DNA of 62,856 nucleotides from Kiritimatiellia bacterium (lineage in GTDB: Bacteria > Verrucomicrobiota > Kiritimatiellia > RFP12 > UBA1067): contig JAFXTB010000034.1 of assembly GCA_017525225.1 (NCBI GenBank), forward strand, positions 1-62,856. Reading direction: 5' to 3'. Each line of letters opens with the position of its first letter. The first letter of the stretch is position 1. Below the pieces are notes generated by a model that worked only from the letters and a program-made list of their open reading frames with translations, made no database searches and was not told where the DNA came from. This document shows, piece by piece, positions 169 through 20,805 of the stretch. A program made the translations under genes and the position numbers.

Positions 169-197
169 TTGCAACCGTACGCGGCATGTGGTACAAT
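169..197 (+). promoter_or_regulatory. Sigma-70-like promoter of the esterase-GH20-EEP gene
   Basis: A -35 TTGCAA (169-174), a 17 bp spacer and a -10 TACAAT (192-197) lie just upstream of the AAGGAG-type ribosome binding site at about 205. The predicted leader is about 14 nt. Confidence 0.6.
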
Positions 198-217
198 GCG
201 GACCCAAGGAGAAAAGC

Positions 218-3200
218 ATGAAGATGCAAAGGTGTTTCCCGGTCGGCCGCGTGGCCGCGTTGATGGTGGTGTCCCTTGCGGTCGAAGCGGCGTTCTGCGC
301 CCCGTCCACAGATGCCTGGAAGGCGCTCCTGGATCCGCCGGCGGGCTATTCCTTCCAGCGGTCCGTGAAGGCGGCGGAGAAATACACTCTCAAGGATTTC
401 GACCTGGAGTACTACATCCAGGCGAACGGCCCGGGTACTGCGCAGCGCGTCATGATGGCGATCCCGAAGACGGCCACGGCACGCGGCCCGCTGCCAGCCG
501 TCGCGGTGCCTTTCTACTTCCCGGAGGCGATGCTGGGCTTCGAGCCGAAGGACGGCACCCCCCTGCCGGATTACACCGAGATCGCAATGATGGCCGACCT
601 GGCGAAGCGCGGATACATAGCCATCTCGGCCACGGCCTACCACCTCACGTACGTCGTCGGCTCCACGAGGCCGAGGGGCGACTTCAAGCGCTGGGCGGAG
701 GCCGCGCAGGCACTCAACCGCGACTGGCCGGGCTGGACAGGCATGGGCAAGCTCGCATTCGACACGCGGCTCCTCGTGGACATGCTCGTGGCCGATCCCC
801 GGGTTGACAGGAATCGCATCGGCATCGCAGGGCACTCTCTCGGCGGCAAGATGGCGATCTTCGCCGGTGCACTCGACAGCCGCATCAAGGTGATACTCGC
901 CAGCGACCCCGGCGTATGCTGGGATCGCAGCAACTGGGACGCGGAATGGTACTTCGGCGCGAAGCTCGATGGGATGAAGAAGGCCGGGCTCGACAACGCC
1001 GGGCTGCTGGCGGCGTACGGCGGCAAGCCGATGTGCCTCCTCGCCGGCGAATACGATGGCGCCTGGAGCGCCGAGCTGCTCAAGAGCGTGGCGCCATACA
1101 GGGAGAATCCCGGGCGCCTGAAGGTCGTCAACCCCGGGCTCGGCAGGCACCGTCCGCCGCAGTATGCCCTGGAGCAGGGATACGCCTTCCTCGACAGGCA
1201 CCTGAAGAACGTCTCGCCGCTCGACGAGCTCATGCCGGCGCCCGTGCGCGTGGAGGCCGGGGAGGGCGTGGCGCAGGGCGCGGCGCTGGACCGCGTCCAG
1301 GTGGTGACCGGTCCGGTGGAGGGCGCGCCCGCGGAGACGGCGGACGAGTCGTACCGGCTCACGGTGTCGCCGGACGGCGTGAGGATCGTCGCCCCGACGG
1401 CGAGGGGCGAAAGATGGGCGCGCGTCACGCTGGACCAGCTGCGCAGGCTCTCGGGCGGGGCCGTGCCCGCCTGCACCATCACGGACTGGCCGAAGCTGAA
1501 GTGGCGCGGCCTCATGCTGGACCTCTCGCGCAACTTCCTGGAGCTAGAGCATCTGCGCGCGGTCATAGACATGATGGAGCGCTACAAGCTCAACATGTTC
1601 CACATGCACTTGACCGAGAACTACTGCTGGCGGCTCGAATCCCGCCGCCATCCGGAGCTGCAGAGCGAGAAGGGGAGGTACGACCCCGGAAACTCCAGGC
1701 ACACGGAGCGGATCTACACGCAGAAGGAGTTCGTGGATTTCGTCGACTACGCGTACCGGCACGGCGTGACGGTGGTGCCGGAGTTCGACCTTCCCGGACA
1801 CTCCGCCGCGTTCCGCAAGGCGTTCGGACTGGAGGGGATGCGCAATCCGCGCGCCACGTCCATCGCGAGAGACCTCTTCGACGAGCTGTGCTCGCTCGTT
1901 CCGGCGGATAGGATGCCGATCATCCACATCGGCACGGACGAGGTGTGGGACGAGGCGGAGAAGCCGGAGGACGATGCGTACGAGAAGTGGGCCCAGACGC
2001 TCGCCGGCCACGGCCGCATCACCGCCAACTGGGGCGGCGGTGGACAGGGTCAGTGGTGGATCCCGTGCCCCGGGCGGCGGATGCTCTTCAGCTGGGGTGT
2101 AGGAATCGCGGGCACGTACACCGATGCCGGACGCCGCGAGGCCGATCCGGCGATGCTCGCCAAGCTCGGGAACGTCGAGCTGATAGATCCCTGGTGGTAC
2201 ATCGAGGAGTACGATCCGTTCGAGGTGCTGCCGGCGGCGACGTACTCCACGCCGTTCATGAGCAGATACGGCGAGAAGTTCCCGCATTCGATGAAGGCGG
2301 GGGCGGAGTTCTGCGCCTGGCACGACTCGGCGGCAGGCCTTCCGCATACGAACATACTGAGCCAGCAGCAGATATTCCCATGCTGCGTGATGTTCGGCGA
2401 CCTCTTCTGGCGCTGCAGGGAGAATCCGCTGCCGGAGTTCGAGCGCCGCCTGCCGCTTGCCGGCGACCCGCGCCTCGAAATCGCCCGCGACATCGAGCGC
2501 CGTACCATCGCCCAGCGCGACAAGGCCCTGAAGGACCTCGCCTACCCGTTCCACTTCCTGCGCCAGACGGACATGCGCTGGCGCCTCTCGCACGCGGACG
2601 GCAGGCTGATCGCGAAGGACATCGCGCAGGCCACGGTGTTCCCGTTCCGCAAGAAGGACAAGCCGCTCAACTACATCCCGGACGCGCGCGGGCACGTCGT
2701 TCTGGAGACGTGGATCAAGTCGCCCGTGGACCAGACGATCGGGGCGTGGATCGGATTCACCGCGTACGACCGCGACCACGGCAGATCGCGCGCCCAGGGC
2801 ACGCCGGAGCAGGGGTGCTGGAACAACGTGGGGGCGTCCATCACCGTGAACGGCGAGCCCGTGGCGCCGCCGAGGTGGGAGAACGCAGGCCTGAAGCCGG
2901 GGGCGGACGTGCCGCTCATCAAGTACATGCACATGCTGGACGAGGTGCCGTACAGGAACGAGGAATACTACATGCGCGAGCCTTCGCGCGTCACGCTGAA
3001 GGCCGGCTGGAACCATGTGAAGCTCGACCTGCCAATGCCGTACGAGGTGAACTGGATCTGGCGCAGGCAGTGGGTCGGCACGTTCATCCCGATGGTCGGC
3101 ACCACCGACCATCCGCGCGAGGTGGAGGGGCTTGAATACAGCAGCGAGCCGCCCCAGGTGCCCATGCGCATGCTCACGTTCAACGTCTACAGCGACTGGC

Positions 3201-4051
3201 ATGTGGAGGGCGGCGGCGTGAAGCCGCGCGAGGCAGGCATAGAGAACACGCTCAGGAAACTGCGTCCGGACATTGCCGCGCTGCAGGAAGTATGCGTGAA
3301 CTGGTGGGCCAGCCCGATGTTCGCGCATCTGGCGTCGGACTACGGCATCGTGCGAGGGGACGAGGCGGACGCCGTCCGGCGGGCCGGGCCGCTGCCGCAG
3401 CCGAAGTCCGGCAAGAAGATGCCCGTCGGGTGCAACCACAATCCGCTGCTGTACCGCAAGGACCGTCTGAACTTGCTGGATTCGGGCTTCGACATCTTCC
3501 ATATCGCGCTGGGCGGTTGCTCCAAGGCCGTGACATGGGCGGTGTTCGAGGACAAGCGCAACGGACGGCGCTTCATTTCGTTCTCGACGCACTTCTGGTT
3601 CAAGAACAACGGGCCGGAGAGCGATGCGATCAGGGAGTTGAACGTGCGGCATATCCTATGGCGCGTTGCGGAAGTGCGCCGGAAGTGGGGTGCGATCCCG
3701 GTGATCGGTGGCGGCGACCTCAATTCCACGCCCGGATCGCTTGCCCACGAGACGTTCAAGCGCGAGGGCTACAGCAACGCGATGCATGTCGCGAAGGAGA
3801 AGACGGCCCGTTCCGCTACGCGTACCTACCATGGCTATCCCAAGACGGACGAGAACGGCGTCTATCACGGTACGGTGGCGCCGCCCGGAAAGGACAAGCC
3901 GGAGCAGTCGATCGACCACATCTTCTTCACCGAGGGCATCCGTGCCATGCGGTACGATCTCGACCTCGACCAGGAGACGCTCGACTCATCCGACCATTCG
4001 CCGGTAGTCGTCGATTTTCTGATCACGTGCGATCCGGCGCTGAAGCAGTAG
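218..4051 (+). CDS. Exported triple fusion: alpha/beta-hydrolase esterase, GH20 hexosaminidase and EEP phosphodiesterase
   Basis: A protein of 1277 aa. The ATG at 218 is preferred because AAGGAGAAAAG precedes it and a signal peptide (MKMQRCFPVG... to about residue 28) follows; an in-frame start at 134 has neither. Residues about 60-350 are an alpha/beta hydrolase with nucleophile motif GHSLGG near 205. Residues about 395-930 are a GH20 catalytic domain with the paired acids in HIGTDEV near 570 and LKWRGLMLD near 427, followed by a beta-rich accessory part. Residues about 983-1277 are an endonuclease/exonuclease/phosphatase fold with LQEV, GGDLNSTPGS and SDHSP. All three active sites look intact. 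The GH20 part is paralogous to the gene at 18829. The role is probably release of acylated N-acetylhexosamine from exported glycans; the EEP substrate is unknown. Confidence 0.85.
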   Translation: MKMQRCFPVGRVAALMVVSLAVEAAFCAPSTDAWKALLDPPAGYSFQRSVKAAEKYTLKDFDLEYYIQANGPGTAQRVMMAIPKTATARGPLPAVAVPFYFPEAMLGFEPKDGTPLPDYTEIAMMADLAKRGYIAISATAYHLTYVVGSTRPRGDFKRWAEAAQALNRDWPGWTGMGKLAFDTRLLVDMLVADPRVDRNRIGIAGHSLGGKMAIFAGALDSRIKVILASDPGVCWDRSNWDAEWYFGAKLDGMKKAGLDNAGLLAAYGGKPMCLLAGEYDGAWSAELLKSVAPYRENPGRLKVVNPGLGRHRPPQYALEQGYAFLDRHLKNVSPLDELMPAPVRVEAGEGVAQGAALDRVQVVTGPVEGAPAETADESYRLTVSPDGVRIVAPTARGERWARVTLDQLRRLSGGAVPACTITDWPKLKWRGLMLDLSRNFLELEHLRAVIDMMERYKLNMFHMHLTENYCWRLESRRHPELQSEKGRYDPGNSRHTERIYTQKEFVDFVDYAYRHGVTVVPEFDLPGHSAAFRKAFGLEGMRNPRATSIARDLFDELCSLVPADRMPIIHIGTDEVWDEAEKPEDDAYEKWAQTLAGHGRITANWGGGGQGQWWIPCPGRRMLFSWGVGIAGTYTDAGRREADPAMLAKLGNVELIDPWWYIEEYDPFEVLPAATYSTPFMSRYGEKFPHSMKAGAEFCAWHDSAAGLPHTNILSQQQIFPCCVMFGDLFWRCRENPLPEFERRLPLAGDPRLEIARDIERRTIAQRDKALKDLAYPFHFLRQTDMRWRLSHADGRLIAKDIAQATVFPFRKKDKPLNYIPDARGHVVLETWIKSPVDQTIGAWIGFTAYDRDHGRSRAQGTPEQGCWNNVGASITVNGEPVAPPRWENAGLKPGADVPLIKYMHMLDEVPYRNEEYYMREPSRVTLKAGWNHVKLDLPMPYEVNWIWRRQWVGTFIPMVGTTDHPREVEGLEYSSEPPQVPMRMLTFNVYSDWHVEGGGVKPREAGIENTLRKLRPDIAALQEVCVNWWASPMFAHLASDYGIVRGDEADAVRRAGPLPQPKSGKKMPVGCNHNPLLYRKDRLNLLDSGFDIFHIALGGCSKAVTWAVFEDKRNGRRFISFSTHFWFKNNGPESDAIRELNVRHILWRVAEVRRKWGAIPVIGGGDLNSTPGSLAHETFKREGYSNAMHVAKEKTARSATRTYHGYPKTDENGVYHGTVAPPGKDKPEQSIDHIFFTEGIRAMRYDLDLDQETLDSSDHSPVVVDFLITCDPALKQ

Positions 4052-4120: not shown

Positions 4121-4150
4121 TTGACAAAACCGTAGGGGGAGGGGTATAAT
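4121..4150 (+). promoter_or_regulatory. Consensus sigma-70 promoter of the beta-helix pair
   Basis: A perfect -35 TTGACA (4121-4126) and perfect -10 TATAAT (4145-4150) are separated by 18 bp. The leader runs about 75 nt to the ATG at 4234, with AAGGAGG at 4221-4227. Confidence 0.8.
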
Positions 4151-4233
4151 TTGTCCGTTTCTTTTTGCCTTGAACGGGGGAATAAGGCAAATCAGTTAAC
4201 AAGTGCAATCAATGACAAACAAGGAGGATGCTG

Positions 4234-6288
4234 ATGATTAGGAAACATGGCAGTGAAGCGGTTCTTGGAGTCCTCGCTTTGCTGGTGACGGTAGTTGCAG
4301 CAGCGGCGCCTGCCACGCTGCATGTCTCGCCTGCAGGCAATGATGAAGATGCCGGAGGGACAGGCTGGGATGATTCGTTCAAGACCATACAGCGGGCGGT
4401 TGATGCTGCGGCAAATGGTGATACTATCATCGTGTCGAACGGTGTCTATCTGATCGACAGTCCGATCGATGTGCCTTCCGACAAGACGCTATCCATCAGG
4501 TCGTACAGCGGCAATATGGACGACGTGGTCGTGGACGGGCAGCATCTGACCAATTGCTTCGTATTCCGCAAGGTAGGCGAGAACCTGCTCTACGGCATAA
4601 CCGTGCGCAATGGTGTCGGCGGTCCTTTCATCGATGGTTCGGCAGCGCTGTTCGCGGGCGGGGTATACATGGCTGGCGGCACGATTGCAGACTGCCGGGT
4701 GTCCGGATGCCATACGCGGTATCAAGGCTCGTCGGCTGTGACCATACGCGGCGGAGGGATATACCATCAGAATGGATTCATATCCAACTGCTGTGTCGAT
4801 GGCTGCGCCATCACCAACCTGAACTCCGCTTCTTCCGTCTCAACGGTATATGGCGGAGGAATATACACGTCAGGGCAGCTGTCCGGCACGGTCGTCTCCA
4901 ACTGCGAGATATATGTGGAATATTCCGGCTACACGGGATCATCCGTCCTGGGATGCACCGGCGGCGGGGTGATGTTTGAGTCGAGTGCGACCATGACGAA
5001 CTGCGTAGTCGCCGACTGCCGTGCGGTTTCCGGCACGCAATCCATGGTCGGCTGGGGTGGCGGCATAACCATTTTCGGCAATTCCAGGACGATCCTGGCG
5101 GATACGCTGGTGCATGGCTGCCGCTCGTCACGGGCGGGCGGGGGCGTGACATTGCGCGGCGAGGGTGCGATTCGCGGATGCACGGTGTCCGACAATAGCG
5201 TCATCGTGGCCAAGCGCGATTCGGGCGGCGGCAACGTGGGCGGCGGCATACAGCTCGACGACTATGCCACCGGGGCGCGGATCGTCGAGAACTGCCTTGT
5301 CTGCCGCAATACCATCACCAACAGCGTGATGGTGCACGGCGATCCCAGCGGCGGCGGCGGGATAGGGATACAGGCGTCCCTCGCCGCGAAACCGGCAATG
5401 GTGCGCAACTGCCTGCTCCTTGACAATCGCGGGTTCAACGGCGGCGCCTTCATGCTGAACGGCGGCAAGGGCATGGTGGTGAGCAACTGCTGGGCAAGCG
5501 GCAACTTCAGTCCGCGCCGCGGCGGATTCGCATACGCGACGGTGACGCCTGGAGCGCTTTTTGTAGATTGCCGACTGGACGGCCATGCGGCAAAATGGAC
5601 GGATGGCAGCGCGCAGGCAGGGCAGGTATTCGTTCGTCATTGCGAGGGGAACGGCACGGAAAACGAGATAACGTTCCGCAACTGCTATATCACCGGAAAC
5701 AATCCGAATGCGCAGACCGCCTCGCTCGTGTGGATCTACAAAGGCACCAAGGGCGGACATTCGCCCGTGGAGTTCGAGCAATGCACCTTCACCGGCAACC
5801 TCGGCAACAACAGCACATTCGCCCTTGACAGCATGCTGTGCGTGTCGAACTTCAGCGCCAAGGGGTGCGCGCTATATGGTAACGGTTCGAACAAGCTCTT
5901 GTCGCGGGATGTCACGAGTGTTCCCGGTGTGATGACATATACGTATTCAAACGAGCGAACGAACATGCCGTCGGATCCAGACAGCCACAACCTGACGACC
6001 GTGGCGGATCCCGGGTTCGAGGACGCCCCGAACGGCAACTACCGCCTGCAGGCATCGTCGCCGCTGAGAAACGCCGGCGGTGCGGCGGCGGAATGGATGG
6101 GAACGGGCCGGAAGAACGGTCCGAAGGACATGGGGGATGGTACGTTTACCATGTCCGCGATGCCCGGCACGACGCACGGTATAGTCCTTTCGCGGAACAA
6201 TGCGCATCCACGCCTTCGCAATTCCGTTCCCGATGTGGGTTGCTTCGAGTTCTGGGCGCCGCCTGGTTTCTCGGCGAACTTCCGTTGA
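4234..6288 (+). CDS. Exported right-handed beta-helix protein
   Basis: A protein of 684 aa. The ATG at 4234 fits AAGGAGG with 6 nt spacing; the ATG at 4228 abuts the Shine-Dalgarno sequence. A signal peptide covers about the first 26 residues. The next part (HVSPAGNDEDAGGTGW... IQRAVDAA) is the typical DUF1565-like opening of parallel beta-helix proteins. Many GGGI/NC-rich turns (SNCxVxxC patterns) continue to about residue 570. Such proteins usually bind or cut polysaccharide at the cell surface, but no catalytic residue set is recognised. It lies 20 bp upstream of a related beta-helix/GH29-like gene and is probably cotranscribed with it. Confidence 0.75.
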   Translation: MIRKHGSEAVLGVLALLVTVVAAAAPATLHVSPAGNDEDAGGTGWDDSFKTIQRAVDAAANGDTIIVSNGVYLIDSPIDVPSDKTLSIRSYSGNMDDVVVDGQHLTNCFVFRKVGENLLYGITVRNGVGGPFIDGSAALFAGGVYMAGGTIADCRVSGCHTRYQGSSAVTIRGGGIYHQNGFISNCCVDGCAITNLNSASSVSTVYGGGIYTSGQLSGTVVSNCEIYVEYSGYTGSSVLGCTGGGVMFESSATMTNCVVADCRAVSGTQSMVGWGGGITIFGNSRTILADTLVHGCRSSRAGGGVTLRGEGAIRGCTVSDNSVIVAKRDSGGGNVGGGIQLDDYATGARIVENCLVCRNTITNSVMVHGDPSGGGGIGIQASLAAKPAMVRNCLLLDNRGFNGGAFMLNGGKGMVVSNCWASGNFSPRRGGFAYATVTPGALFVDCRLDGHAAKWTDGSAQAGQVFVRHCEGNGTENEITFRNCYITGNNPNAQTASLVWIYKGTKGGHSPVEFEQCTFTGNLGNNSTFALDSMLCVSNFSAKGCALYGNGSNKLLSRDVTSVPGVMTYTYSNERTNMPSDPDSHNLTTVADPGFEDAPNGNYRLQASSPLRNAGGAAAEWMGTGRKNGPKDMGDGTFTMSAMPGTTHGIVLSRNNAHPRLRNSVPDVGCFEFWAPPGFSANFR

Positions 6289-6308
6289 TGTATGATGGGA
6301 ACGGGGAT

Positions 6309-9107
6309 ATGAACATGAGTATCCGTTTCTGCGTCTTGGCGATCGCGGTGCTGTGCTGCGGTCTGTCGATGGCCACCGATGAACGGCTGCACGATGCCGT
6401 GGCAATGGCCGAGAATGGCGCGACGGTCCGCATCGCGCCTGGAACGTACCGTATCGAGCGTCCGATAGTGGTGCCGGAGGGGAAGACGCTTTCGATAGTC
6501 GCCGATGGTCCGGACGGCACTGTGGTGGATGCCGGGGGGCGGACCAACTGCTTCGTGTTCCTTTCCAGAGGCGCCAATCTGCTGAAGGGTATCACCGTCA
6601 GGAACGGACGCGGTGCGCCGTGCATCCTCGGCGATGAGACATGGTACGCAGGTGGGGTTGTGATGCGGGGCGGAACAGTGGAAGGGTGCCGCATCGAGGG
6701 ATGCTCCACGCTTTCCCCGACGAAGGCCATCGGCGGCGGCATCACGACCTGGGGGCGTGTGAAGGACACGGTGGTGTCCAACTGCCATGTGTGCGTACGG
6801 CGCGAACACAACGGCGGGACGCATCCGCTAGTCTGCTCTGGCGGCGGAATCCTGCTGTATGGCGGGCGCGGCGTGAGCGGTTGCACGGTTGAGGAATGTT
6901 CGGCGGAGGCGCTGGAGCCCGGACCTGCGGTCGGCGGGTATGGCGGCGGCATCGAGGTGTTCGGCGATGCGCGCGTTGAGAACTCGCGGGTATCGGGATG
7001 CCGCGCCTCTATGGGCGGCGGCGGAATCCACCTGAACTCCGGGGGGCACGTGTCGGACTGCGTTGTGGAGTCGAATTCGGTGGCGGTCGCCTGGCGCTGG
7101 GACGGGATGAACCTGGGCGGCGGGGTGTCCGTCGGCGGCGCATCTGCAAAGTCCCGCATCGAACGGACGAAATTCATTGGCAACCGCATCGGTGGAATAG
7201 ATGCCGTGGATGCGCCATGCGGCGGGGGCGGCCTGGGGGTGGGCGAGGCGGACGGCGTGGTCGTGGCTGATTGCGAGTTCTCCGGTAACGAGGGTTTCAA
7301 CGGCGGTGCGGCGTATTTCAGGAATTCCCGAGCGAATGTGACGGGCTGCAGGTGCTATGGAAACACGACAGGTCGGCTGGGGCCCAATTTCGCCATGTCG
7401 GCGATGGATGGTGTGACGGTGGACGGCTGCACTGCGTCAAGCGGGGAGCTGCTTGCGCGTCCGCGCCAGTTCAACCATGACACGGACTGGATGTCGGGTC
7501 GCATCGGCGTGTTCCAGCATCGCCTGTACGGCCGCGCCCCGGCGGCGTTGAAGGCGATGGAGAGGATCGATCCCCAGGCCATGGCCTGGCAGCTTGCCGA
7601 CATCGGCGCGGACTACTTCTGCATCACCCTGCACCAGTGCGTGCCGTCGTTCATCGCGCCGAACGACGTCTACGAGGACATCTGCGGGCATCCGCGCGGA
7701 TCCGTCTGCCTGCAGCGCGACGTGCCCGCGGAGCTGGCCGCCGCGCTCAAGGCGAAAGGCATACGGCTCATGCTCTATTCCACGGGAACTCCGCCGCGCG
7801 AGGACGTGGAGGGTGTGAAGCGCATCGGCTACGAGCCGAACGGCCGCGGCGACCCGCGCTACACGCCGGAAGGCGCACGCAACTGGGCGAAGGTGCTGGA
7901 ATTCTGGAGCCGGCGCTACGGCGAATCCGTCAGCGGCTGGTGGATCGACGGATGCTACTCGTCCATCGGGTTCGACCGGCCCGACGTATGCGCTGCCACG
8001 CTCTTCGCCTCGGCGCTGAAGAGCGGCAACCCCCATGCCGTCGTGGCGTTCAACCCCGGTGTTGGATTCAAGCCGTACACGCCATACGAGGACTACATCT
8101 GCGGCGAGGTAAACGAGCCGTTCTTCGAGGCGTGCGTGGGAAGGTGGGTTGATGGCCGCCAGTGGCATCTCCTGACGTACTTCTACACGCCGATGGGGTT
8201 GCCGGCGCCCGTCCGCTACACGGATGGCGAATGGATAGAGTGGCTGACGCCCGTGATCAAGCGCGGCGGATGCGTGACAGTCGATCTGAGGTCGCTCGAC
8301 AGTGGCTGCATCATGCCCGCCCCGGCCGCGCAGTTCAAGCGCGTGGTGGCGGCGGTACGGGGACGTCTGCCGAAGGACGGGGCCGACGCCGCCAAGATCG
8401 CCCGTGAAAACGAAATACGGTTGCGGACCGATGCCATCGATGCCGCGAACACGAGCTACGAGCATGGACAGCGCCGATTCCTGAAATGCCAGTATGCGAT
8501 GAAGTCGGCTGTGCCGGACCGCACCCGCCTGCGCCGCACGGCGACGGGCGAGACCATCTGGACGGATGCCATCCAGGCTACGCTCGATGCGCGCGGGGGA
8601 GTGTTCCTGCCGCAGACGACGACGCCGTATCTGCTTGACGGACCGATCATGCTGAAGGCGGGGCAGTCACTTGTCATGGAGCAGAGTGTCATGTTCAATT
8701 CATCCCTGCGCTCCGGCAAATGCACCAGGTTCGCCGTCGTACCGGGGACGAAGGGTCCGCTGATTGCGACATGTGGCCCGGGACCGTTGCGGGACATCTA
8801 CATCAAAGGTGTGGTATTCGAGGGATGCGACAGCCCGATGAGCCTTTGCGGCGTGGACGGGCTTGTCGTACGGGAGATCGCGTTCCGCCGCTGCACCGGA
8901 ACGGGAATCAGGCTTGCCGACGTCGGCAACTTCCGGATTGACGCCCTGCTGGCGCTGGAATGTGGCGGACTTGACCAGGTCGTCGACATCGCCGGCGCTT
9001 GCGCGAAGGGCATGCTGCGAAACATCGATGGAACGGGCGTGAAGGCCGTCAACGGCAATGCCGATGGTGCCATTCTAGAGGCGGTGTCCGGTGTGCCGTG
9101 TCGGTAG
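6309..9107 (+). CDS. Exported beta-helix / GH29-like (alpha-L-fucosidase superfamily) fusion
   Basis: A protein of 932 aa. The start at 6309 (or 6315) is chosen for the signal peptide MSIRFCVLAIAVLCCG. Residues about 25-385 are a parallel beta-helix closely similar in layout to the upstream gene. From about 395 a TIM-barrel segment begins, with HDTDWM, YFCITLHQ and SGWWIDGCY; the last resembles the nucleophile strand of GH29 fucosidases (W-x-D-G). Residues about 740-930 return to short beta-helix-like repeats. The GH29 assignment rests on these motifs only; a more distant GH29-like hydrolase is possible. No gap or frameshift is seen. Confidence 0.7.
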   Translation: MNMSIRFCVLAIAVLCCGLSMATDERLHDAVAMAENGATVRIAPGTYRIERPIVVPEGKTLSIVADGPDGTVVDAGGRTNCFVFLSRGANLLKGITVRNGRGAPCILGDETWYAGGVVMRGGTVEGCRIEGCSTLSPTKAIGGGITTWGRVKDTVVSNCHVCVRREHNGGTHPLVCSGGGILLYGGRGVSGCTVEECSAEALEPGPAVGGYGGGIEVFGDARVENSRVSGCRASMGGGGIHLNSGGHVSDCVVESNSVAVAWRWDGMNLGGGVSVGGASAKSRIERTKFIGNRIGGIDAVDAPCGGGGLGVGEADGVVVADCEFSGNEGFNGGAAYFRNSRANVTGCRCYGNTTGRLGPNFAMSAMDGVTVDGCTASSGELLARPRQFNHDTDWMSGRIGVFQHRLYGRAPAALKAMERIDPQAMAWQLADIGADYFCITLHQCVPSFIAPNDVYEDICGHPRGSVCLQRDVPAELAAALKAKGIRLMLYSTGTPPREDVEGVKRIGYEPNGRGDPRYTPEGARNWAKVLEFWSRRYGESVSGWWIDGCYSSIGFDRPDVCAATLFASALKSGNPHAVVAFNPGVGFKPYTPYEDYICGEVNEPFFEACVGRWVDGRQWHLLTYFYTPMGLPAPVRYTDGEWIEWLTPVIKRGGCVTVDLRSLDSGCIMPAPAAQFKRVVAAVRGRLPKDGADAAKIARENEIRLRTDAIDAANTSYEHGQRRFLKCQYAMKSAVPDRTRLRRTATGETIWTDAIQATLDARGGVFLPQTTTPYLLDGPIMLKAGQSLVMEQSVMFNSSLRSGKCTRFAVVPGTKGPLIATCGPGPLRDIYIKGVVFEGCDSPMSLCGVDGLVVREIAFRRCTGTGIRLADVGNFRIDALLALECGGLDQVVDIAGACAKGMLRNIDGTGVKAVNGNADGAILEAVSGVPCR

Positions 9108-13733: not shown

Positions 13734-15173
13734 ATGAACATGAAGGTGAATTGGCATAGAGGTTTCGTGGCGGCGAGTGCAGCGGGCATGCTGCTGGCGG
13801 CGGGTGCGACGGTCCAGAATCTGCCCATGGCGTCGCCAGAGTCGCAGGGCGTTCCTTCGGAGGCGATCCTCGGATGGATCAGGGCCTGCGAAGAGGATGC
13901 GCTGACAAACCGCCTGGTAAGCGGGCATCTGCACGGGTTCGTGCTCGTGCGCCACGGGCGGACGATCGCCGAGGGAACATGGGCTCCGCAGAACACGCTG
14001 GAGAGTCCGCACATGCTCTATTCGCATTCCAAGAGCTTTGTGTCGACGGCCATCGGCTTCCTTGTGGACGACGGCAAGATAGACCTCGACAGGCGCGTCA
14101 TCTCGTTCTTCCCCGACCAGGCGCCGGCCAAGCCGTCGGAGAACCTCAGACAGGCGCGAGTGCGCGATCTGCTGACGATGAACCTCGGCGCGGACCATAC
14201 GGACGCCGAGCGCGACGACATCACGGGCGACTGGGTGAAGGCGATCCTCCGCAACAGGATCGACAGGGAGCCTGGCACCGGCTTCAGGTACGATTCCGCC
14301 GCAACGCATCTGCTGGCGGCGATCGTCGAGAAGGTCAGCGGCAGGCCGTTGATGGACTTTCTCAAGGAACGCCTGTTCGATCCGCTCGGCATGAAGAGCC
14401 CGTGGTCGACCGTCTCGCCTACGGGCGTCGCATGCGGGGGATGGGGGATGAACATGACGACGCGCGACCTCGCCCGTTTCGGACAGTTTTTCCTGCAGGA
14501 AGGGCGCTGGGGTGACCGGCAGCTGCTGTCGCGGGAATGGGTACGTCTGGCAACGGCGCGGCAGACATGGTCGGGCGGCATAGTGGTGCAGGCGCAGACG
14601 ATCGGTTCCGGAAGCGACTGGAAGCAGGGGTACGGTTTCCAGTTCTGGCGCTGCAGGCACGGGGCGTATCGTGCAGATGGGGCGTCGGGACAGTATACTG
14701 TGGTCTTTCCCGAACAGGATGTGGTCCTGTCGATCCATGCGGGGATCGGCAACATGCAGCGCGAGATCGATCTCGTGTGGGAGCATCTCCTGCCGGCATT
14801 CGGCAGCGTCCCGCTCGCCGCGCGGCCGGAGGCGGAGCGCGCGCTGCGGGAGAAGTGCGCGAAACTCGCCCTGCCTACGGTGGACAAGACGAAATGCGTT
14901 TTCGAGGGGCTTGACGGAGCGTCCGTCGAATCCGCGCCCGACGGCTGGACGCTCGTGAAGGAAGGCCGGAGGCTTTCCGTAGGGAAGTCCGGCTGGGCGG
15001 TCACGCGCTGGAAGTTCAGCGATACGAACGTCGAGCCTCTCTTCGTCGATTGCGGCACGCGAGAGATTGCCGCGATCGGCCGCATCACGCCGGAAGGAAA
15101 ACTCTCCGTCACCTGGCAGTTCCTTGGCGGTATTCGCCATGGCCGGTTCGAGGTTTCAAGTTCTTCAAAATAG
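13734..15173 (+). CDS. Exported serine hydrolase of the class-C beta-lactamase fold
   Basis: A protein of 479 aa. The start is ATG 13734 (or 13740, MKVNWHR). A signal peptide precedes about residue 26. SHSKSF at about residue 100 is the SxxK catalytic motif; YDSAATHLL supplies the Y-x-[NS]-like second motif, and HGAYRADGASGQ the third. This family (PF00144) contains esterases, D-aminopeptidases and penicillin-binding-like enzymes; a role as glycan or cell-wall esterase fits the neighbours. It starts 10 bp after deoA and is likely in the same operon. Confidence 0.8.
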   Translation: MNMKVNWHRGFVAASAAGMLLAAGATVQNLPMASPESQGVPSEAILGWIRACEEDALTNRLVSGHLHGFVLVRHGRTIAEGTWAPQNTLESPHMLYSHSKSFVSTAIGFLVDDGKIDLDRRVISFFPDQAPAKPSENLRQARVRDLLTMNLGADHTDAERDDITGDWVKAILRNRIDREPGTGFRYDSAATHLLAAIVEKVSGRPLMDFLKERLFDPLGMKSPWSTVSPTGVACGGWGMNMTTRDLARFGQFFLQEGRWGDRQLLSREWVRLATARQTWSGGIVVQAQTIGSGSDWKQGYGFQFWRCRHGAYRADGASGQYTVVFPEQDVVLSIHAGIGNMQREIDLVWEHLLPAFGSVPLAARPEAERALREKCAKLALPTVDKTKCVFEGLDGASVESAPDGWTLVKEGRRLSVGKSGWAVTRWKFSDTNVEPLFVDCGTREIAAIGRITPEGKLSVTWQFLGGIRHGRFEVSSSSK

Positions 15174-15195
15174 CAAAGGAAATCAAGGACAGGAA

Positions 15196-16173
15196 ATGGA
15201 AAGACAGAAAGGCAACGTAATCTGGGCCGATCTGGTGCATCTAGGGCACAACATGTGGTCTGCGGCCCGGCCGTACGACACCGTGCTGCGGTGCGAGGAT
15301 GCTGAGTGGCGGCTCATAACCGACCGCATGGCGGCCGTGGGGATGAACATGATCGTGATCGACCTGGCCGAAGGGATCGTGTATCCAAGCCATCCCGAAC
15401 TCGCCATCAAGGGCAGCTGGAGCGTGGAGAAGATCCGCGCCGAGATCGCGAGGCTCAAGGCGGCCGGCATAGAGGCGATCCCCAAGATCAACTTCTCCGC
15501 CGGGCACGATGGCTGGCTGGGCGAGTATTCGCGCATGGTCGCCACGCCGAAGTACTATTCGCTGTGCTCGGAGCTGATCCGCGACGTGGCCGAGATATTC
15601 GACCACCCACGCTTCTTCCACATCGGCTTCGACGAGGAGGAGCCGTTCTGCCAGAAGCACGACGATCTGATCATCAGCCGCCAGGGCGACCTGTGGTGGC
15701 ACGATCTCAAGTTCATCGCGGGCGAGGTGGAGAAGAACGGAATGCGTCCGTGGATGTGGAGCGACTTCGCCTGGCATTCGGGCGACGAGTTCTACAGGCG
15801 CTGTCCGAAAAGCATAGTGCAGTCGAACTGGTACTACAGCGCATCCTTCGACATGGCGAAGCTCGCGAAGGACAAGGAGGAGGAGATCCGCCAGAGGAAG
15901 ACGGTGCAGATGCATGAGTACGACCAGGTGGACTGCTATCTGAAGCTGGACAAGGCCGGGTTCGACCAGATCCCCTGCGGCGGCAACTGGCGCGAGGAGG
16001 TGAACTTCGGCGAGACCGTGAAGTTCTGCCGCGCAAACCTCGCGCCCGCCCGGCTGCTGGGCTTCCTGGTGGCGCCGTGGCGCGCGACGGTGGCCAAGTA
16101 TCGCGACAAGAACCTGAAGGGCGTCGATCTCGCAGGCGAGGAGATAAGAAAATGGAACGCATCCCGACACTGA
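15196..16173 (+). CDS. GH20-like TIM-barrel glycoside hydrolase
   Basis: A protein of 325 aa without an evident signal peptide, so probably cytoplasmic. The start at MERQKGNV is chosen for the AGGACAGGAA upstream; a longer frame overlaps the previous gene. FFHIGFDEEEPF at about residue 142 looks like the GH20 Asp-Glu pair, and PWMWSDFAW and the downstream Trp-rich strands fit a (beta/alpha)8 barrel. It overlaps the next gene by 22 bp. Intracellular processing of an oligosaccharide released by the GH20 enzymes is plausible; the family is not proven. Confidence 0.6.
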   Translation: MERQKGNVIWADLVHLGHNMWSAARPYDTVLRCEDAEWRLITDRMAAVGMNMIVIDLAEGIVYPSHPELAIKGSWSVEKIRAEIARLKAAGIEAIPKINFSAGHDGWLGEYSRMVATPKYYSLCSELIRDVAEIFDHPRFFHIGFDEEEPFCQKHDDLIISRQGDLWWHDLKFIAGEVEKNGMRPWMWSDFAWHSGDEFYRRCPKSIVQSNWYYSASFDMAKLAKDKEEEIRQRKTVQMHEYDQVDCYLKLDKAGFDQIPCGGNWREEVNFGETVKFCRANLAPARLLGFLVAPWRATVAKYRDKNLKGVDLAGEEIRKWNASRH

Positions 16174-17666: not shown

Positions 17667-18832
17667 GAAGACTTGCATTTCTTGCGGTTTCGCTGTCGGC
17701 CGCCACCTGCGCCTGCGCATTCGACGTGGTGGCGCTCGTGGACTCGCTGGACTTCGCGAAGAGGTTCGACATCGAAACGTCCACCGGCACGGTGCAGACG
17801 CTGGAGCATGTGCTGCTGTCGCACGCGAACGACATCTGGTGGCGCGACAAGGGCGGCGGTAGGATGCGCTATCCCAGCCGTTGCGAGATGTGGCAGTTCT
17901 CGGAGGCGCCGTTCGACAAGTTACGCCTGTCGAGCGAGGACATCTACGGCTACCTGCGCCTTGAATCGCCGCGCGGCAACGAGTTCCCGCTGGTGCGCGC
18001 CGAGTGCGCCAGGCGCGGGCTTGGGTTCGGCATCCACACCACGATCGAGGAGAACCACTGGTACGGTCCCCTCGCCTCCAACTGGACGCTCGCGCATCCC
18101 GAGTACTGGGGCTGCACGCGCGATGGCGACCCGTGGATGGGCTGCTGCTCGATCATGCATCCCGAAGTGATCTCGCACAAGCTGGAGATGGTCGACGAGC
18201 GCCTTGCCATGAAGCCGCAGAAGATCATGCTCGACTTCTGGCGCAACGGCGCATGGTCCTTCGCCCGCGAATACACCGCGCCCGCCATCGCGGAGTGGAA
18301 GAGGCTTTATGGCGGCGAGCCGGTGCCGCCTGCCTCCGATCCGCGCTGGCAGAAGATGGTCGGCGCGCATTTCGACGCCTATCTGCGCGCGTTCTCGGCG
18401 AAGTGCCGAGCGGCAGGCGTGCAGTTCATCTGCGGCATCCCGGGCGTGGACGAGGCCTGCGGCCCGATTGACGGCAGGATAGGGGGATTCGACTGGCGGC
18501 ATCTCGCGCAGGAGGGCGTGCTCGACGCCGTGTACGTCATGAGCGTAGTCTACGACGCGAAGGATCCGTTCGGATCCACGGAGCGCATCTATCGCAGCGT
18601 GATGTCAAACCGCGGCAAGGCGGAGGTGTACTTCCCCGTATCCGCCTACAACATGCAGAAGTGCGGGTTCGGCGAGTATGCCAAGCTCACCGGCACCACG
18701 CCCGCCAAGGCGGCGGGCAGGCTCCTTCGTCTCGCGCGCGAAGTCGGTGCGCGCGGGGTGGTTCTTGAATGCGTGGACTACGGCAACTATTCGCCGGAAG
18801 TCTGCGCGGCAATTAAGGAGGCGCTACAATGA
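17663..18832 (+). CDS. Exported TIM-barrel hydrolase-like protein (GHL10-like)
   Basis: A protein of 389 aa with signal peptide MRRLAFLAVSLSAATCACA. The order of segments (GFGIHTTIEENHWYG, HPEYWGC, PQKIMLDFWR, FDAYLRAFSAKCRAAGVQF, VYVMSVVYDAKDPFG) fits a glycosyl-hydrolase-like 10 barrel. Asp in MLDF and Glu in VDEACG are candidate catalytic residues, but the family is not assigned with certainty. It overlaps both neighbours by 4 bp, so it is translated with the propeller protein and the GH20. Confidence 0.6.
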   Translation: MRRLAFLAVSLSAATCACAFDVVALVDSLDFAKRFDIETSTGTVQTLEHVLLSHANDIWWRDKGGGRMRYPSRCEMWQFSEAPFDKLRLSSEDIYGYLRLESPRGNEFPLVRAECARRGLGFGIHTTIEENHWYGPLASNWTLAHPEYWGCTRDGDPWMGCCSIMHPEVISHKLEMVDERLAMKPQKIMLDFWRNGAWSFAREYTAPAIAEWKRLYGGEPVPPASDPRWQKMVGAHFDAYLRAFSAKCRAAGVQFICGIPGVDEACGPIDGRIGGFDWRHLAQEGVLDAVYVMSVVYDAKDPFGSTERIYRSVMSNRGKAEVYFPVSAYNMQKCGFGEYAKLTGTTPAKAAGRLLRLAREVGARGVVLECVDYGNYSPEVCAAIKEALQ

Positions 18833-20805
18833 AGGTTTGGTCTGGATATGCATTGGCCGTGGCGGTGTGCGCCGCGGCCGCGACGGCCGAGGGTGGTTCG
18901 TCGACTGGGTGTTCCGTGCTCAACGAGCTCATGCCGGTTCCGAAGTCCATCGAGGCGCGGGGCGGCATGCTGGCCGTGGAACGGCTTCGTGACGTGTCGG
19001 TGGCGCACGGCGCTGTGCCGGGGGCGCCTGCGGCCGTGGCGGACGAGGCGTATCTGCTGGAGATATGCGAGGACGGCGCGAAGATCACAGCCGCCGGCGC
19101 ATTCGGCGAGACATGGGCGCGCGTCACGCTCGACCAGCTCGCGCGGCTCGCCTGCGGCCGCGCCGTGCCGTGCTGCCGCATCGCGGACTGGCCGCGCCTA
19201 AAGTGGCGCGGATTCATGCTCGACACCGTGCGCAACTATCTGCCGCCGCAGGGCGTCAAGGATGTGATCGACGTGATGTCGCGCTACAAGCTCAACCTCT
19301 TCCACTGGCACCTCACCGAGAACTATGCCTGGCGGCTGGAGTCGAAGCGCTTCCCGCAGCTGCAGTCCGAGCGTGCGTTCCTGCACCGCCACAAGGGCAT
19401 GTTCTACACACAGGAGGAGTTCCGCGACATCGCCGACTATGCCTATTCGCGCGGCGTGCGCATGATGCCCGAGTTCGACTTCCCCGGCCATGCGCTCGCC
19501 TTCAGGCGCGCGTTCGGGTTCAAGACGATGTCGGACCCGGATGTCGCCGATGTCGCGGCGGCGTTGTTCACGGAGCTATGCTCGCTCGCGCCGAAGGAGA
19601 AGATGCCGTTCATCCACATGGGCACCGACGAGGTGTACCGGCGCGATCTCGAGGGTACACCGAAGGAGACGCTGGAGCGGATGGCCAAGGCCATCGCGGA
19701 CGGTGGCCGCACGATGGTGAGCTGGGTGCCAGGCGAGAGCTACGCCGACCAGGGCCCGCGCGTCAACATGCTATGGACGGGCAAGGTGTCGCCGGACACG
19801 AACCCTGGCGCATATTTCGACGCCATCGGCATGTACATCGAGGATATGGATCCGTTCGAGCTCCTGTCCGTGGCCGTCTACCACAAGGCGGCGCGCTGGC
19901 ACGACGCAGGCGACATGAACCAGGGCGCGATATTCTGCGCCTGGCACGATGGTGCCGTGGGCCAGCCGTACGAGAACCTTCTTCGCAACCAGCCGGTGTT
20001 TCCGTCGTGTGTACTGTTTGGAAACGCCTACTGGAACGGCCGCTCTGCGGACCTGCCGCAGTTCCGCAAGAGCCTGCCGCTAGGCTCCGACCCGTTGCTC
20101 GCCGAGGCGGCCGAGGTGGAGCGGCGCGTAGTGGCCCAGCGCGACAGGGCCCTCCGCGACCTGAGGCACCCGTTCCACTTCCTGCGGCAGACGGACATGC
20201 GCTGGCGGCTTTCGCAGGCGGACGGCACGCTGATCGTCAAGGACATCGCCCAGGCGACGATCAGCCCCGGACTCCTCAATGGTGCCGACGGCAGCCCCAT
20301 CCTCTCCCCGTCCAACGGAACGGTCGTCGCCGAAACGTGGATCAGATCGCCGAGGCGCCAGAAGGTAGGTGCATGGATAGGCTTCACGAACATCTCTCGC
20401 GACCACGGCATGGTGAACACCGCCCCGCTGCCCGGCGTCGGCGAATGGAACCGCTTCGGGGCGACGGCGGAGCTGAACGGCGAGAAGATTGCGCCGCCGG
20501 AATGGAAGCGTCCCGGCTTGCAGAAGGGCAGTGCGATAGCGGACTGGACGCCGTCCTGGACGCTCTACGAGGCCGATGAGGAGCCATTCACGGACCAGGA
20601 ATACGTCATGCGCGATCCCACGCCGATCGTCCTTCGCGAAGGCTGGAACCATGTGAGGCTCACGATGCCCAATCCGCTGTCGGGCGGCAAGACGCGCCAT
20701 CGCTGGGTAGGTACGTTCATCCCGGTGTCTGGCACGACGGCCCATCCTCGCGAAGTGCCGGATCTGGAGTACTCGTCCGATCCGCCTGCGGCAGGCCGCC
20801 CATGA
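18829..20805 (+). CDS. Exported GH20 beta-N-acetylhexosaminidase
   Basis: A protein of 658 aa with a signal peptide to about residue 20. LKWRGFMLDTVRNY, YKLNLFHWHLTENYAW and MPEFDFPGHA are conserved GH20 barrel segments, and FIHMGTDEV near residue 265 carries the Asp-Glu catalytic pair. A C-terminal beta-rich module ending LEYSSDPP is also present in the triple-fusion protein at 218, so the two are paralogues. It removes terminal GlcNAc or GalNAc from glycans. It is the last gene of the plus-strand run and is followed by a hairpin. Confidence 0.88.
   Translation: MKVWSGYALAVAVCAAAATAEGGSSTGCSVLNELMPVPKSIEARGGMLAVERLRDVSVAHGAVPGAPAAVADEAYLLEICEDGAKITAAGAFGETWARVTLDQLARLACGRAVPCCRIADWPRLKWRGFMLDTVRNYLPPQGVKDVIDVMSRYKLNLFHWHLTENYAWRLESKRFPQLQSERAFLHRHKGMFYTQEEFRDIADYAYSRGVRMMPEFDFPGHALAFRRAFGFKTMSDPDVADVAAALFTELCSLAPKEKMPFIHMGTDEVYRRDLEGTPKETLERMAKAIADGGRTMVSWVPGESYADQGPRVNMLWTGKVSPDTNPGAYFDAIGMYIEDMDPFELLSVAVYHKAARWHDAGDMNQGAIFCAWHDGAVGQPYENLLRNQPVFPSCVLFGNAYWNGRSADLPQFRKSLPLGSDPLLAEAAEVERRVVAQRDRALRDLRHPFHFLRQTDMRWRLSQADGTLIVKDIAQATISPGLLNGADGSPILSPSNGTVVAETWIRSPRRQKVGAWIGFTNISRDHGMVNTAPLPGVGEWNRFGATAELNGEKIAPPEWKRPGLQKGSAIADWTPSWTLYEADEEPFTDQEYVMRDPTPIVLREGWNHVRLTMPNPLSGGKTRHRWVGTFIPVSGTTAHPREVPDLEYSSDPPAAGRP

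Follow-up and report, generated by a model that had tools for sequence, protein, structure and literature searches.

The window, by which we mean the whole 62,856-nucleotide stretch of Kiritimatiellia bacterium DNA analysed here, carries a single gene joining an esterase, a GH20 and an endonuclease/exonuclease/phosphatase (EEP) module. An uninterrupted frame on the forward strand (218-4051) encodes 1277 amino acids in the order CE15/AXE1-like alpha/beta-hydrolase, GH20b plus GH20, C-terminal domain and EEP. An initial annotation of this DNA had described one polypeptide with three intact catalytic sites, and both points were confirmed by the continuous frame, the signal peptide, the clean junctions and the expected residues found in alignments of each module. 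The reading towards which we lean, with some reserve, is that of one secreted trifunctional glycan-trimming enzyme, recently formed by the joining of three genes that are separate in relatives, the EEP module being more probably a sugar phosphomonoesterase. The modules were called from Pfam matches, PDB sequence searches, alignments, and AlphaFold models searched with Foldseek.

A sigma-70-like promoter found by consensus scan (TTGCAA-17-TACAAT, 169-197, forward strand, 9 of 12 matches) and an AAGGAG ribosome-binding site (about 207-212, forward strand) just 5' of the codon favour ATG 218 as the start of the gene. An ATG at 134 was dropped as a candidate start, both the promoter-like pair and the AAGGAG being downstream of it. 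On inspection, residues 1-28 (218-301, forward strand) resemble a signal peptide, with Lys/Arg, a hydrophobic stretch and small residues ahead of the probable cleavage site, and the protein is therefore predicted to be exported. Its host is a gut bacterium, probably of the rumen. A perfect sigma-70 consensus (TTGACA-18-TATAAT, 4121-4150) was observed 5' of the next gene, which encodes a beta-helix-like/DUF5123 protein (4228-6288). A beta-helix protein of about 1000 amino acids (6093-9107) was also seen, whose C-terminal part resembles further, unassigned modules and which is possibly a composite.

The esterase module (residues 27-333; 296-1216, forward strand) was identified by Pfam, PDB sequence search and alignment. 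The Pfam matches were weak and overlapping (GCE_fung, AXE1 and S9, at residues about 121-254), and the PDB search returned CE15-type esterases, OtCE15A, in a weak match. A Ser-Asp-His set is kept in the alignment: S207 (GHSLGG), D280 (AGEYD) and H311 (HRPP). The module is like the CE15 glucuronoyl esterases and AXE1 acetyl xylan esterases (OtCE15A) by sequence in the nucleophile-elbow region and the surrounding residues, although the match spans part of the domain only. As the likely acid here is the AGEYD aspartate, the module may be of either the CE15 or the AXE1 (CE7) class. The esterase would remove an acyl or uronoyl ester.

The second module consists of GH20 domain 2 and the GH20 catalytic barrel (residues 334-800; 1217-2617, forward strand). 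Pfam matched GH20b at residues 371-424 (1.3e-8, 36.1 bits against a curated cut-off of 26.1) and GH20 from residue 428 (6e-37, 128.2 bits against 22.3). The PDB sequence search returned many GH20 hexosaminidases, and an EEP fusion is named for none of those listed. Structure models of GH20 and EEP were made separately, one module each; the GH20 model (pLDDT 89) supports the expected fold, its top Foldseek matches being GH20 structures. Residues R438, H528, D574-E575, W605, W626, Y661 and W701 are conserved across 20 aligned GH20 sequences, and we take them to be the -1 subsite (Arg, His, Trp and Tyr) and the catalytic Asp-Glu pair. Met is found at position 463 of the window protein (M463), against Trp in the remaining 19 of the 20 sequences, and Thr at position 573 (T573; HIGTDE, common to a large part of the subfamily) in place of the Gly of many GH20; both positions are presumably non-catalytic. 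Gut-bacterial GH20 beta-N-acetylhexosaminidases (Akkermansia Am2136, 8pxu; B. fragilis 4pys; the Bt4394 6-sulfo-GlcNAc enzyme) also have GH20b plus the barrel, and they have the Asp-Glu pair and the aromatic -1 subsite residues in common with the fused module. The latter differs in having HIGTDE for HIGGDE, HLTEN for HLTDN, and a C-terminal domain outside Pfam. The module is a predicted hexosaminidase, which would free terminal beta-HexNAc by substrate-assisted catalysis at D574/E575. The C-terminal domain (residues 801-980; 2618-3157, forward strand) was recognised from close GH20 homologues and the model; it is mostly strands and belongs to no Pfam family. The unfused state is present in the same window as a single-module paralogue (18829-20805, forward strand), which has GH20 with the same C-terminal domain and is 50% identical. 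A 368-amino-acid frame without a Pfam match (15067-16173) was also seen to carry the GH20-like motif HIGFDEEEP.

The EEP module (residues 981-1277; 3158-4048, forward strand) matches Pfam PF03372 at residues 986-1260 (9e-13, 48.8 bits against a curated cut-off of 24.5), and the alignment showed that N989, E1024, H1125, D1167, N1169, D1233 and D1259-H1260 are kept. An AlphaFold model made from 20 sequences (pLDDT 89, pTM 0.90) supports the EEP fold. In the Foldseek search the model matched 3g6s best (E 4e-20, TM 0.71/0.81), followed by two Bacteroides thetaiotaomicron structures, 3mpr and 4c1r, and then by nocturnin, CNOT6L and TDP2. The entry 4c1r was deposited as the mannosyl-6-phosphatase Bt3783, which we take to be an EEP enzyme that a gut glycan degrader uses on sugars. 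With a broad EEP profile, 4c1r scored 1.2e-26, second after 3g6s alone; with a narrow profile Bt3783 scored 0.0018 only, behind CCR4/nocturnin. DNase I-type nucleases were rejected as the nearest EEP group, as the broad profile and the fold both place the module nearer to 3g6s and Bt3783, and also to nocturnin, CNOT6L and TDP2, than to DNase I. The top sequence and fold match, BVU_0621 from Bacteroides vulgatus (3g6s), is a stand-alone protein with 23% identity. Bt3783 (4c1r, 3mpr) is alike in fold and core residues but also stands alone, with 15-17% identity in the fold alignment. Because 3g6s and the mannosyl-6-phosphatase Bt3783 are nearest in fold, the likelihood of a glycan phosphomonoesterase is no lower than that of a phosphodiesterase. 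A sugar phosphatase is a reasonable guess from sequence and model, not a demonstration, and two points count against it: 3g6s, the closest structural relative, is uncharacterised, and the narrow-profile score of Bt3783 is low. Such a module would remove phosphate by metal-dependent hydrolysis, a sugar phosphomonoester being a likelier target than a backbone phosphodiester. Within the literature collection searched, nothing was returned on Bt3783, mannosyl-6-phosphatase or EEP in polysaccharide utilization loci, and EEP was mentioned in none of the papers listed for GH20/EEP/esterase multi-domain proteins. A tblastn search of plasmids gave weak EEP matches only. A further frame of 1219 amino acids in the same genome (L092:240-3896, reverse strand, contig C91) has an N-terminal EEP, clearly closer to the Bt3783 group (2e-38), and about 880 amino acids without a Pfam match.

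The same three-part or GH20-EEP architecture was found in none of 115 family genomes (E 1e-60, best five candidates per genome). The nearest relatives of the modules are separate genes or end before the next module. For the esterase (L134, 64% identical) and the EEP (L123 and L124, 74% identical) they stand alone, each with a signal peptide of its own. In genome G027 (RUG12478, L031) the last 100 residues of a GH20 are about 90% identical to the window protein, with 87% DNA identity along this stretch, and the G027 protein stops where the EEP begins in the window protein; the gene after it is unrelated. The GH20/EEP junction reads EYSSEPPQVPMR (3134-3169, forward strand), and the G027 protein ends EYSSEPPKEIRK-stop. 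Separate genes in all relatives, the outcome named in the initial annotation as speaking against it, were thus found for the exact fusion, but the GH20/EEP pairing itself recurs. A second EEP-GH20 fusion, with both catalytic sites intact, is present in the same genome (L091:1623-3911, reverse strand, contig C3), with EEP at residues 55-277 followed by GH20b plus GH20 at 305-732. Like the window protein it holds both catalytic families in one exported protein; it differs in its inverted domain order, in drawing on other subfamilies of EEP and GH20 and in lacking an esterase, so that the pairing arose at least two times. The description of an EEP on a hexosaminidase as unusual holds in that GH20 plus EEP is rare, though with this second independent case it is not singular. 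Its recurrence in reverse order within one genome hints at functional coupling.

Two or three genes misjoined in metagenome assembly could also give such a frame. The exact fusion is present in one genome only among the candidates searched, and the gene begins 217 bases from the contig end, as might be expected of an artefact. However, both joins are in frame, without internal signal peptides, and are located at natural domain ends, where free-standing relatives start or stop. At neither join does the sequence occur elsewhere in the genome, apart from one partial match of 54 nucleotides at 80% in a GH20 paralogue, and no repeated 17-mer was found at the junctions in the window; hence there is no repeat to cause a misjoin. 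Third-position G+C is also alike across the modules (0.88, 0.91, 0.94 and 0.85). An assembly error at the domain junctions, raised as a concern in the initial annotation, was not borne out by this search for a long second match, and an artefact is very improbable.

The fusion is part of a wider habit of joining secreted enzymes, as seen when EEP partners were tallied in the bacterial family plus its relatives. EEP was found C-terminal to a glutaminase-like GtaA (GtaA/DUF5127/DUF4964) in nine frames from several genera (L043, L082, L083, L098, L100, L101, L105, L106 and L107), which was the most frequent EEP pairing seen. Other EEP partners were GDPD (L040, L041 and L125), tyrosine-phosphatase-like (L038 and L039), GDSL (L050 and L097), GH76 with BSP (L096), DUF4838 (L099), DUF3863 (L110), GH39 (L111), GH129 (L112), metallophosphatase (L116), FAD oxidoreductase (L104) and LamG (L095). 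GH20 was joined to esterases in L122 (GCE_fung+GH20), L022 (GH20+AXE1) and L127 (GDSL+SASA+GH20), to DUF5696 in L032 and to an aldose epimerase in L126. An apolipoprotein N-acyltransferase (Lnt) was observed to share one frame with GH20 (L128:3370-6777, reverse strand). In L034:2390-5410 (forward strand) and L129:1130-5908 (reverse strand), an HAD domain was seen at the C-terminal end of a GH20 protein of the same subfamily; the HAD domain of L034 is related to the phosphorylcholine phosphatase 4as2, another phosphoesterase-GH20 pairing. Counted by hand among the matches listed, EEP frames of at least 500 amino acids numbered at least 37 in 60 relatives against at least 17 in 38 genomes of other families of the phylum, a comparison that is indicative only. 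In the family, GH20 and EEP both occur often in long composite frames, which are less evident among sulfatases; of the latter, most full-length frames were about 450-830 amino acids (12 family genomes).

Such shuffling could be neutral: neighbouring or mobile genes for secreted enzymes would often become fused, the modules acting separately on different substrates and the EEP serving broadly as an extracellular nuclease or to scavenge phosphate. The frequent long GH20 and EEP composites, including unlikely ones such as Lnt-GH20 and EEP-FAD oxidoreductase, would agree with this, as would the failure of any relative, among the best five candidates in each of the 115 family genomes, to keep the exact fusion. 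The pairings nevertheless recur and look non-random (EEP-GtaA in nine frames, GH20-esterase three times, EEP-GH20 twice), and in the window protein the junctions are clean and every catalytic residue is kept, which makes neutral mosaicism possible but doubtful. The enzyme with three joint activities is supported by the recurrence of parts of its architecture (the reversed EEP-GH20 of L091; the esterase-GH20 frames), by phosphoesterase-type pairings (GH20-HAD; EEP with tyrosine-phosphatase-like, GDPD or metallophosphatase) together with GH76, and by the fold likeness to Bt3783. Against it, partners of EEP and GH20 are so many (FAD oxidoreductase, Lnt, aldose epimerase, LamG) that the fusion may not imply a common substrate.

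The initial annotation had proposed a single substrate in which acyl groups, HexNAc and phosphodiester links occur together, for example a phosphorylated or phosphodiester-linked glycan or a teichoic-like polymer, on which the EEP would act as a phosphodiesterase. GDPD enzymes cleave glycerophosphodiesters, and the three EEP-GDPD fusions, one of them in the same genome, lean a little towards a phosphodiesterase. Phosphodiesterases are numerous among EEP enzymes and include the fold matches CNOT6L and TDP2, and the two EEP-GH20 fusions of the genome would also suit a polymer of this kind. In this family, however, EEP has a wide range of unrelated enzymes as fusion partners, and therefore the identity of a partner says little on the substrate. 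Among the structural relatives found, the only one that acts on sugars is a phosphomonoesterase, and no teichoic-specific gene was present among the window neighbours examined. Since the family shuffles modules widely, the proposed substrate gains little from the architecture, and since it habitually joins secreted enzymes the fusion alone is no proof of a special phosphate-linked target. A phosphodiester polymer is therefore an improbable substrate.

In the trifunctional enzyme that we prefer, the fusion would keep all three activities in one place in the extracellular space, where they might act jointly on one molecule. Multi-catalytic CAZyme fusions are a known class, and the exact three-part form is unusual within it. 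Going further, it is conceivable, though we would not rely on it, that the EEPs of the family are dedicated extracellular glycan phosphatases or phosphodiesterases that have spread by becoming fused to glycoside hydrolases, and that the window protein processes, in a single chain, an acylated and phosphorylated HexNAc glycan on which GH20 can act only once the phosphate is gone. To our knowledge few enzymes for phosphorylated-glycan use in the rumen have been characterised, and phosphoesterase-glycosidase fusions would point to such glycans as a rumen nutrient. Secreted catalytic domains are recombined with unusual freedom in the family, EEP turning up repeatedly among the partners, and the fusions provide a list of natural multi-activity enzymes.
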